Below are positions 31,250-33,800 of a stretch of 64,000 nucleotides of DNA, in pieces. The stretch is from Neoscytalidium dimidiatum (Eukaryota > Ascomycota > Dothideomycetes > Botryosphaeriales > Botryosphaeriaceae), in NCBI GenBank assembly GCA_037367355.1, contig CM074699.1, forward strand, positions 496,001 through 560,000. The letters run 5' to 3'. The number at the start of each line of letters is the position of its first letter. The first letter of the stretch is position 1. Below the pieces are notes generated by a model. It made no database searches. It had not been told where the DNA came from and saw nothing but the letters and a program-made list of their open reading frames with translations. The position numbers and the translations under genes were made by a program.

Positions 31250-33800
31250 TTACCCGATCTCATGTCCATCAGGCGCCAGTGCCAGAGATTCGTCACCCAA
31301 AAGATCCTGGGCACGGCGATACTCTTCTACAGAAAGCAGTCCAGTCGCAGACTTTGATAAGGCTGGATGTGTGACCGGCGACATGAAGTCGTTCATGACC
31401 CAACTCAAGATACCTTTACGGCCCATATTAATGGCTATCAGAGGTGCTTGGTACTCCTGTTGCAACTCTGTCTTGAATCTAGCCAGATCAATGTTATCCT
31501 GGATTCTATCAGCCTTCCCAACCACTTTGATCACATCTCCATGTTGGAAAGCCTTGCTTGAACACGCAATCCAGGACTCATCCTTCCAGGGTAGTTTATG
31601 GCCGTGATAAGAGGCGATGATCCGACTGTAGCCCTTGGTGGCTGATATTTCCCGCAGCAAGCCTTCTGACCAGGCGACATCGACGTCAATGAATTCACAG
31701 CCGAGACGGATGGCTACCTTAAAAAGCCGTAGGGCTTCTTTCTCAGCGTTGTCCGGAAATTGTCCACCTTGGGACTTCCGCTTCAATGCAAAGACCAGTG
31801 GCAACGATGTGGAAGCCCGGAGCACTGCTACCTGGTCGATAACAAAGTCAACTGTGGGGATTCCCTCGGTTCCCCGAAGGTCGTAGAGAAGATCTACTCG
31901 AAGCTCAACGGCATCGACTCCACTAGTGATCCGCTTGATCGGAAGCGATCTCACGTTCGGAGAGGAAATGCAAACGATGAGCGACTGCCTCTTGCGCTGT
32001 AGTTCTTTCTGAACGTCGCATCTCCCGGTTATGACACCCAGAAAGCGTCCGAAAGCCTGACTGGGGCTGCAAATACCACGTTGCTCAATGGCTTGACTGT
32101 GGAAATGGAAGTTACTGCACTCTTCGTACCAGCTTTTGCGGTGAAGCCAGGTATCCATCACCGGATTGGCGTTGTCGAGGAACCCAATCCCTTGCGCAAT
32201 GTCGCGAGTGACGAGCAGAACAATGCCACCACTTTGCTTCCAGGCTTTCAGCAGCTCTCGTGCCTCTGGAGATTCGATCGTCCCGCCAGCACACGCCAGT
32301 ACATGATTGGTCGGACGTTCTTCCAGCATCTGCTTGAGTAATTTTGTCTCTTCCCTTCGGAAAAATTCCCATCCATGACTCTTTATTATTTCGGGAATCG
32401 GTAAGCCCACTTGGTTCTCGAGAACAGTTGCCAAATCCAGCAGTGGCCAACCCAGGAATTCTGACGCCCAGCTGCCCATCCTTTGCTCGCCATCGCCTCG
32501 CATGCCAATCGTGATGAGCGACCTGTGTTGATCAACTCTGCGTGGCGGTGGTGCTTCACGTTCGGCGCACTCAGACGAAAGGACGGTAAGAAGATCCTGG
32601 TCTGTGACCTTGGACGCCTGCTTCTCGTAGGTTCTGCCGATCTCAGCTAAGAGAACGACTTTCTTGGTCGCACCATCGTTCTTCTTATCGAGCGCCATGT
32701 TCGACAAGATACGATTGATGTTGCACTGCTTACTGGCTGATCTCCTGCGCATAAGCTCGTCGGAAAGAGTTGTGGGAAGACCGTACGCAGCAATGCATGC
32801 CGTCAGTCTCGCAACCGCTTCAAACGGAAGCTTTCCCAATGAGTATGCCAACTGAGCTTCCAGAACCATACCAATAGCAACGCACTCGCCATGCAGGATC
32901 TGCGGAGCAAGGATAGCTTCGATGGCATGGCCAATAGAATGACCGAAGTTAAGCAAATTTCGTAGGCCACCCTCTTTCTCGTCACTTGAAACAACGTGAG
33001 CTTTAACACGTACGGAGCTTAGGATCATTCGCAGAAACGTGTCGGTCATGTCGATTATGCTGGTCTGCTGACTTTCAAATGCCTGTTGAACCAAGCCTGC
33101 GTTTTCTTCGAGGAAGCGGAATTCGTTCTCATCCCATATTGCCGCGGTCTATGCCAGAGTCAGCGAACGGTGTTCTAGAGGGACTTGAATCAAAACCTAC
33201 CTTTATTACTTCCGCCATGCCATTGATAAACTCACGATGGGGAAGTGTCTGAAGAAATTGCGTGTCGATGTAGATTCTCTCCGGCTGCCAAAAGGCCCCA
33301 ATCAAGTTCTTCCCAGCCGGAGTGTCGACCGCAGTCTTCCCGCCAATGGACGAGTCAACCATGGCCAGCAGCGTAGTTGGTACCTGAATGAACCGTACAC
33401 CTCTCATGTACGTCGCTGCCACGAAGCCTGCCAGGTCGCCAATGACGCCGCCGCCCAGCGCAACTACCACCGTATCCCGAGTGCATCCTTCACTGAGCAT
33501 CCAATCCTCTATTGCTGCCTTCGTAGACCGAGATTTTGATGCCTCTCCCGGCGGGATGGCACGCACAAGCAGACGCGCTCCGGTAGTGAGCTTATCAAAG
33601 CTCTTCTCAAGCGCGCCAACGTACAGTGGGCCGATGTTCGTGTCTGTGAGAACAACGTATGTAGATGACTGCACGCTTTTGAATAAATCATTTGCGATGT
33701 AATTGCTCCAGAGGCCGTGACCGATGATGATATTGTCTTTGCCCAGGATGGCCACTGTGATGGGCCCGTTTGAGATGTTGGCTCCGGTGATATCGCCCAT
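31250..33800 (-). CDS. AROM-derived fusion: 3-dehydroquinate synthase, dead shikimate-kinase-like domain, type I 3-dehydroquinase
   Basis: Two exons, 33800-33201 and 33148-31250 (832 aa). Residues 1 to about 392 are dehydroquinate synthase: [19 protein letters not shown] (NAD/phosphate), metal ligands in [15 protein letters not shown] and LHGEC, all kept. After an 18-residue linker, about 410-590 is a shikimate-kinase fold whose P-loop reads GMRGDGEQR instead of GXXGXGK(S/T), so ATP binding is probably lost. About 590-800 is type I dehydroquinase with VELRVD, catalytic His in ASYHGHK (about 715) and Schiff-base Lys in DVIKVVGK (about 741). Fungal AROM is about 1580 aa and also holds EPSP synthase (before the kinase) and shikimate dehydrogenase (C-terminal); both are absent. 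Inferred role: DAHP to 3-dehydroshikimate for a specialised product. It is divergent from the DAHP synthase. It is unlikely to be a QutR-type repressor, because the catalytic residues are intact and the domain order differs. Confidence 0.92.

Follow-up and report, generated by a model that had tools for sequence, protein, structure and literature searches.

A putative dehydroquinate synthase derived from AROM, with degraded kinase and dehydroquinase domains, beside a DAHP synthase gene in Neoscytalidium dimidiatum

A stretch of 64,000 nucleotides from the genome of Neoscytalidium dimidiatum (the window) contains an AROM-derived gene that appears to have been reduced, in effect, to its first activity. 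AROM is a textbook case of a fused pathway enzyme. The derivative keeps an intact-looking dehydroquinate synthase (DHQS) domain, followed by a shikimate-kinase-like (SK) domain and a type I dehydroquinase (DHQase) domain that are both degraded, and it is divergently transcribed from a gene for DAHP synthase, the enzyme of the preceding step. Its architecture, residue losses, and paralogy are established at the level of sequence. We consider it reasonably probable that a specialised-metabolite gene group is supplied by DAHP synthase and DHQS acting as a module, and that the SK and DHQase domains persist as a folded scaffold.

RESULTS

Gene model and domain architecture

The AROM-like gene lies on the reverse strand at window positions 33800..31250 (Table 1), the limits given by the original prediction and reproduced by the splice model and the spliced translation. 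The frame is intact, the product is 832 aa long, and the single 52-bp intron (33149-33200) has GT-AG borders and a codon position identical to that in the two full AROMs of the genome, AROM1 and AROM2 (after an AE[VI][IV]K motif). Pfam matches follow the predicted order of DHQS, kinase-like domain, and type I DHQase: DHQ_synthase (residues 81-192), DHQS_C (194-357), SKI (419-570, E 3.3e-24), and DHquinase_I (592-813, E 2.1e-49), the last two far beyond chance, together with a weak overlapping match to Fe-ADH_2.

Table 1. Features of the AROM-like gene and its neighbours (window positions)
Feature	Position	Strand	Residues	Basis
AROM-like gene, exon 1	33201..33800	-	1-200	Splice model
AROM-like gene, exon 2 (stop included)	31250..33148	-	201-832	Open reading frame, spliced translation
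DHQS domain	32576..33800 (intron within span)	-	1-391	Pfam, A. nidulans mapping, conserved columns
Linker replacing EPSP synthase domain	32525..32575	-	392-408	Alignment with AROM1/AROM2
Degraded SK domain	32024..32524	-	409-575	Pfam SKI, conserved columns
Degraded type I DHQase domain	31295..32023	-	576-818	Pfam DHquinase_I, AroD mapping, conserved columns
Stretch between divergent AROM-like and DAHP synthase genes (871 bp)	33801..34671	.		Gene models
DAHP synthase (371 aa, intact)	Exons 34672-34713, 34765-35698, 35758-35897	+		Pfam, TIGR00034, gene model
O-methyltransferase (Dimerisation and Methyltransf_2), two open frames	28786..30081	-		Pfam
Zn2Cys6 regulator with AflR domain	26823..28100	+		Pfam
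FAD monooxygenase	24282..25634	+		Pfam, NCBIfam
Cupin-domain protein, approximate hand-spliced model	22870..23780	-		Pfam Cupin_2 6.6e-07
Zn2Cys6 transcription factor with Fungal_trans domain	20295..22532	-		Pfam
PDR-type ABC transporter, two main open frames, 5' part outside model	16216..19998	+		Pfam

Two of the five domains of a pentafunctional AROM (DHQS-EPSPS-SK-DHQase-SDH) are missing, as had been predicted: neither EPSP synthase nor shikimate dehydrogenase has a Pfam match in the protein. The linker in place of the first is about 17 residues, close to the 18 originally counted. Overlooked EPSP synthase coding sequence, which the original prediction had named as an objection, was searched for in the window with both missing domains of the genome's own AROMs, and nothing credible was found (best E 0.014, within the PDR transporter gene). 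The junction between DHQS and SK falls within one open exon, and a missed exon was rejected. Profile searches gave two EPSP synthase matches genome-wide, each in a full AROM. An assembly error behind the loss was likewise rejected, given a homologue in Neofusicoccum parvum (P0001) that also has no EPSP synthase domain.

Comparison with known AROM structures had been proposed as a check. An AlphaFold2 model of the exon-2 product (632 aa, without the first 200 residues), built from a 40-row alignment, had a mean pLDDT of 83.8 and a pTM of 0.65, and its closest matches in the PDB were AROM structures, 6hqv coming first and 7tbv being the following separate entry. Both degraded domains are predicted to fold, with pLDDT values of 86-98 for most 10-residue blocks and 59 for the SK lid region. 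The linker falls below 50 at model residues 195-207, equivalent to protein residues 395-407.

State of the retained domains

Each domain was scored at columns that are at least 95% conserved and present in the AROM-like protein. The comparison set was drawn from matches P0002-P0120, of which 109 of 119 were used (>1,100 aa); it includes metagenomic and partial AROMs and a Chytriomyces protein, and counts were restricted to proteins in which 80% or more of the columns were present. The DHQS domain departs at 1 of 57 columns, as many as or fewer than 40 of the 105 comparison proteins (mean 0.67, maximum 8). Departures in SK number 7 of 34, a level reached by 0 of 108 comparison proteins (mean 0.33, maximum 4), and those in DHQase 9 of 50, reached by 0 of 99 (mean 0.57, maximum 4). 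At the same columns, AROM1 departs once in DHQS and not at all in SK or DHQase, and AROM2 departs once in each domain (of 49 columns for DHQase).

The intact look of the DHQS domain in the original prediction is thus supported. At 28 selected positions mapped on the A. nidulans DHQS (P0142), 27 residues are as in the reference, and the lone difference is common to AROM1 and AROM2. The predicted metal ligands, which we take to be E197, H270, and H286, are all kept. Having both the domain match and the conserved active-site residues of a 3-dehydroquinate synthase, this domain looks functional.

The SK domain carries the changes K421E, D440A, G487A, V491I, R528N with a shortened lid, V533T, and R536H. 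Its P-loop reads GMRGDGEQR, and the predicted degradation of the kinase, with loss of the lysine, is evident. Presumably K421 is the P-loop lysine, D440 the shikimate-binding Asp, and R528 the lid Arg; the Glu, Ala, and Asn found here, with the short lid, are not the residues of an active shikimate kinase.

Changes in the DHQase domain are F591I, L594I, T654A, R656K, E690D, D716G, R783W, P802T, and Q804L. Aligned with AroD of E. coli (MG1655 record), the catalytic dyad His715 and Lys741 is kept, as are Glu615 and Arg617. The original check, which listed Glu, His, and Lys as present, was incomplete, since the positions of AroD Arg82, Arg213, and Gln236, which we take to be substrate-binding residues, are Lys656, Trp783, and Leu804, and that of Asp144 is Gly716. 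Where AroD has Glu86, this protein has Gln, as do all seven fungal comparison proteins. The available part of PMC4314829 makes no mention of AroD residue roles. We infer that SK and DHQase are inactive. Because the three AroD positions are lost, the likeliest product is dehydroquinate and not dehydroshikimate, and some DHQase activity is possible because His and Lys are retained.

Conservation of the degraded domains

A search of fungal proteomes, as suggested in the original prediction, returned the N. parvum protein P0001 as the closest in architecture among the matches listed. It has 554 aa and is annotated as "Pentafunctional AroM protein"; its alignment covers 66% of the query at 87% identity. 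An EPSP synthase domain is not listed for it, and it carries all seven SK changes, which therefore are not sequencing errors. Its model ends inside SK, before DHQase, so evidence for the DHQase changes comes from a single genome. The public model is probably mis-spliced or frame-shifted inside SK. By eye, its terminal residues resemble another reading frame of the AROM-like gene.

Identity between the AROM-like protein and P0001 is 88.7% for DHQS and 88.0% for SK (residues 407-541). For the same stretches, the DHQS and SK values are 94.3% and 91.0% for AROM1 and N. ribis, 95.6% and 88.8% for AROM1 and L. theobromae, 94.3% and 92.5% for AROM1 and D. seriata, and 88.2% and 88.1% for AROM2 and Macrophomina. 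Values of pN/pS against AROM2 are 0.25 for DHQS, 0.36 for SK, and 0.40 for DHQase, compared with 0.20, 0.35, and 0.34 between AROM1 and AROM2, all of them rough because pS is saturated (0.73-0.81). With SK about as conserved as DHQS relative to P0001 and pN/pS well under 1, the degraded domains are not drifting freely. Judged by sequence and structural model together, the two degraded domains seem to be folded and conserved, though not for catalysis, and the original suggestion that the kinase domain persists as a structural spacer is plausible.

Origin within the AROM2 lineage

The genome searched (43.76 Mb, 40 contigs) has two full AROMs besides the AROM-like gene, AROM1 on contig C1 and AROM2 on contig C3, and primary metabolism is therefore covered elsewhere. 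Profile searches located DHQS, EPSP synthase, and DHQase in both, and translated alignments located SK and shikimate dehydrogenase. Trees of the DHQS half and the SK-DHQase half were built with FastTree and, on a chosen subset of 26 and 25 rows, respectively, with IQ-TREE; P0001 has too few columns for the SK-DHQase tree and was left out of it. AROM1 groups with AROMs of Neofusicoccum, Diplodia, and Lasiodiplodia (100/97 for DHQS and 94/96 for SK-DHQase), in keeping with a fungus of the Botryosphaeriaceae. The AROM-like protein joins AROM2 and a Macrophomina homologue with both programs, with IQ-TREE support of 100/99 for the DHQS half and 97/93 for the SK-DHQase half, the latter on a long branch and 54% identical to AROM2 (226/421). 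In the SK-DHQase tree this group is inside the Botryosphaeriales AROMs (100/99, IQ-TREE). For the DHQS half, FastTree joins the AROM2 group with Botryosphaeriales AROMs (support 0.86), and IQ-TREE leaves the placement open. Grouping with AROM1 is rejected by the AU test for DHQS (P value 0.0001) and not for SK-DHQase (P value 0.1). The best reading is that the gene arose as an AROM duplicate within the AROM2 lineage. Derivation from AROM, as first proposed, is thus supported by domain phylogeny, in which both halves are sister to AROM2, and by the intron site common to the full AROMs.

Genomic neighborhood and a sister region

The DAHP synthase encoded at 34672..35897 matches Pfam DAHP_synth_1 (3.4e-91) and scores above cut-off for TIGR00034. 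Beyond the AROM-like gene on the other side is an O-methyltransferase gene, which separates it from the AflR-type Zn2Cys6 gene at 26.8-28.1 kb. Inside this regulator, a GGC-rich run at window positions 27800-27880 encodes about 20 glycines. The best NCBIfam match of the FAD monooxygenase is 3-hydroxybenzoate 6-monooxygenase, with salicylate 1-monooxygenase also matched, both under cut-off; the cupin-domain protein has no NCBIfam match. Tailoring, regulator, and transporter genes therefore stand together, as in a specialised-metabolite cluster. No PKS, NRPS-like, or terpene synthase gene was identified among the 39 of 83 window ORFs (at least 150 codons) that were scanned, and with no backbone synthase among them the group may not be a cluster.

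A second region, at 19-53 kb of contig C3 (L018, L017, L006, and L019), has highly-reducing PKS pieces and genes for a P450, a 2OG-Fe(II) oxygenase, a DAHP synthase, a PDR pump, and an MFS transporter in addition to AROM2, which has an 83% identical relative in Macrophomina phaseolina. There are four DAHP synthase genes in the genome (five matches), and in a six-row tree that includes the copy at C5:1665873, the window copy has the one on C3 as its sister (support 0.99), at 84% identity. For the window pump, the second frame (18-20 kb) also has its best paralogue in the C3 pump (69% identity versus 52% for the next), in a match crossing one in-frame stop that is probably an intron or the end of the gene. 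The O-methyltransferase, the FAD monooxygenase, both regulators, the cupin exon, two SDRs, and a DUF2985 protein have no match in the C3 region (E 1e-4). By homology, an AROM copy, a DAHP synthase, and a pump are therefore common to the window and the C3 region, and the rest differs. The original prediction mentions neither the neighbouring DAHP synthase nor this paralogous region with its PKS.

Other related genes were found in the genome. A type II DHQase is encoded at C2:1429929. There are also AP_endonuc_2 matches, and QutR-like genes lie no more than about 6 kb from two of these; the family includes dehydroshikimate dehydratases. An AP_endonuc_2 gene lies ~1 kb from the DAHP synthase at C5:1665873, on the opposite strand (L021, C5:1661001-1671000), and is possibly a dehydroshikimate dehydratase. 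A fourth, distant DHQS-like gene at C5:1899362 (L007, C5:1895500-1905000, 3863-4303) is 27% identical over 147 aligned columns and possibly encodes another sugar-phosphate cyclase; a link to a mycosporine route was considered. A 938-codon open frame resembling the C-terminal half of AROM (L023, C4:849501-856000) has lost the lysine position of the SK P-loop and keeps all checked DHQase positions, unlike the related frames L024 and L026.

DISCUSSION

Proposed function

We propose that a duplicate of the AROM2 lineage lost EPSP synthase and shikimate dehydrogenase and was turned in effect into a single-activity dehydroquinate synthase, in which SK and DHQase, now lacking residues that catalysis or substrate binding requires, would remain as a scaffold. 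With the divergent DAHP synthase it would make an entry module outside the five-step AROM, converting PEP and erythrose-4-P to DAHP and then to 3-dehydroquinate. The dehydroquinate could enter an ordinary AROM. It need not go through AROM, since the genome has type II DHQase and AP_endonuc_2 genes, and enzymes of these two kinds could lead it to protocatechuate-type phenols. The module probably serves the specialised-metabolite gene group in the window, made up of the PDR pump, the two Zn2Cys6 regulators, the FAD monooxygenase, the cupin protein, and the O-methyltransferase; the FAD monooxygenase and the O-methyltransferase would fit a phenolic product. The activity of DHQS, the co-regulation of these genes, the pathway, and the product are what we infer. 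A sphaeropsidone-type product was a guess, and the literature search gave nothing that bears on its biosynthesis.

Alternative explanations

The original prediction was of a bifunctional enzyme, with DHQS and DHQase both active, that takes DAHP to 3-dehydroshikimate for a protocatechuate-type product. Retention of His715, Lys741, Glu615, and Arg617 is consistent with this, and fusions of DHQS and DHQase that keep the dyad do exist in other fungi (P0068, P0199, and P0226). The Lys, Trp, and Leu at the positions of AroD Arg82, Arg213, and Gln236 (presumed to bind the substrate) argue against it, as do the nine changed DHQase columns where no comparison protein has more than four, and as originally put forward it is not supported; we regard it as unlikely. 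Somewhat less likely still is that the SK-DHQase half is a docking module, joining full AROM chains through kept DHQS and DHQase surfaces into a mixed complex, so that cluster-controlled DHQS and DAHP synthase would inject dehydroquinate into the housekeeping AROM or divert it from there. If this were true, a pseudo-domain subunit would be retuning a fused multi-enzyme for specialised metabolism. The AROM and DAHP synthase copies might instead confer self-resistance, as insensitive duplicates against a cluster-made inhibitor of the shikimate pathway, the window copy having kept only the DHQS target. Two gene groups, of which one includes a PKS, do contain target-like duplicates together with a PDR pump, and a resistant DHQS could feed an ordinary AROM. 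Yet every change at the checked DHQS positions is common to AROM1 and AROM2, DAHP synthase is duplicated too, for which supply is the simpler account, and the available part of PMC12105029 already describes a cluster that makes an aromatic product and includes a gene for DAHP synthase. We therefore find self-resistance improbable.

A regulatory protein, whose SK-DHQase half would bind a pathway metabolite and control a Zn2Cys6 activator like QutR, GaaX, and TanX, with or without DHQS activity, would suit the two Zn2Cys6 genes nearby, and the available part of PMC10512348 regards QutR-type repressors as AROM relatives probably without catalytic activity, encoded beside their activators. This is very improbable given that the SK-DHQase half groups with AROM2 (97/93) at 54% identity, compared with 26%, 24%, and 22% to the QutR-like L023, L024, and L026 of the same genome; moreover, DHQS is conserved, the SDH part is absent, and the O-methyltransferase gene stands between the AROM-like gene and the nearest regulator gene. 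Least probable of all is an AROM paralogue that is decaying into a pseudogene and has no function under selection. Such decay would account for two lost and two degraded domains, for the long branch of the SK-DHQase half, and for an N. parvum model that ends inside SK; it is at odds with an 832-codon open frame with an intact-looking DHQS, with the changes shared with P0001 at 88.7% and 88.0% identity, and with the low pN/pS.

Significance

In our preferred reading of a supply module, a natural derivative of AROM appears to uncouple the first activity while keeping two folded but degraded domains. The gene adjoins that of the preceding enzyme and its sister copy lies by a PKS in the same genome, which suggests that two gene groups, each apparently for a specialised metabolite, have taken in entry enzymes of the primary pathway. 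The protein offers a direct test of roles of AROM domains besides catalysis, such as assembly and channelling. It also carries a warning for annotation, the N. parvum relative being labelled pentafunctional.

Comparison with known systems

Literature searches listed no report of this architecture or of clusters that carry AROM copies; the available part of PMC8336260 mentions neither shikimate nor AROM. Protein searches covered the best 120 of 1095, of 7888, and of 2364 matches, from candidate lists limited to about 8,000, with domains as precomputed by Pfam. Among the matches listed, P0001 alone combines DHQS and SK with the absence of EPSP synthase and shikimate dehydrogenase. The arrangement had been called unknown in the original prediction; it is indeed unusual, but relatives exist. 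Pentafunctional AROM/Aro1 (6hqv and 7u5s) has the same domain types and the same order of the three kept domains, and the AROM-like gene resembles AROM1 and AROM2 in intron place and groups with AROM2. It differs from AROM/Aro1 in having no EPSP synthase or shikimate dehydrogenase and in its degraded SK and DHQase. The DHQS-DHQase fusions among the matches listed, from Umbelopsis (660 aa), Rhizopus (747-764 aa), Gilbertella (734), and Blakeslea (740), likewise join DHQS to DHQase with no EPSP synthase or shikimate dehydrogenase domain listed. Unlike the AROM-like protein, they have no SK domain listed, and P0068, P0199, and P0226 keep the positions of AroD Arg82, Asp144, Arg213, and Gln236. 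In a Chytriomyces protein with the order DHQS-SK-DHQase-SDH (P0051, 1232 aa), too, DHQS is followed by SK with no EPSP synthase domain in between, but this protein retains shikimate dehydrogenase, the P-loop lysine of SK, and those DHQase residues that the AROM-like protein has lost.

Repressors of the QutR/GaaX/TanX type are described in the available part of PMC10512348 as AROM-derived, related to the last three AROM domains, and proposed to be catalytically inactive. Derivation and proposed inactivity are points of likeness, but these repressors have no DHQS and are distant in sequence. In place of their SK-DHQase-SDH content the AROM-like protein has DHQS and no SDH, and membership in the QutR family is ruled out by the Pfam domains and by the low identity to QutR-like frames. 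For the gene pair, a parallel is the allantofuranone cluster, which combines DAHP synthase with genes for an O-methyltransferase and a regulator and with an NRPS-like gene (PMC12105029, in the part available). A dead domain retained in the chain has a precedent in Candida albicans Aro1, where, according to the available part of PMC9074039, a catalytically dead DHQase mediates dimerisation. The likeness supposes that the DHQase described here is inactive, and it has limits, since the other four domains of C. albicans Aro1 are active and its DHQase has lost the His/Lys dyad. N. parvum P0001 shares the absence of a listed EPSP synthase domain and seven identical SK changes with the AROM-like protein, and differs in that its model stops inside SK.
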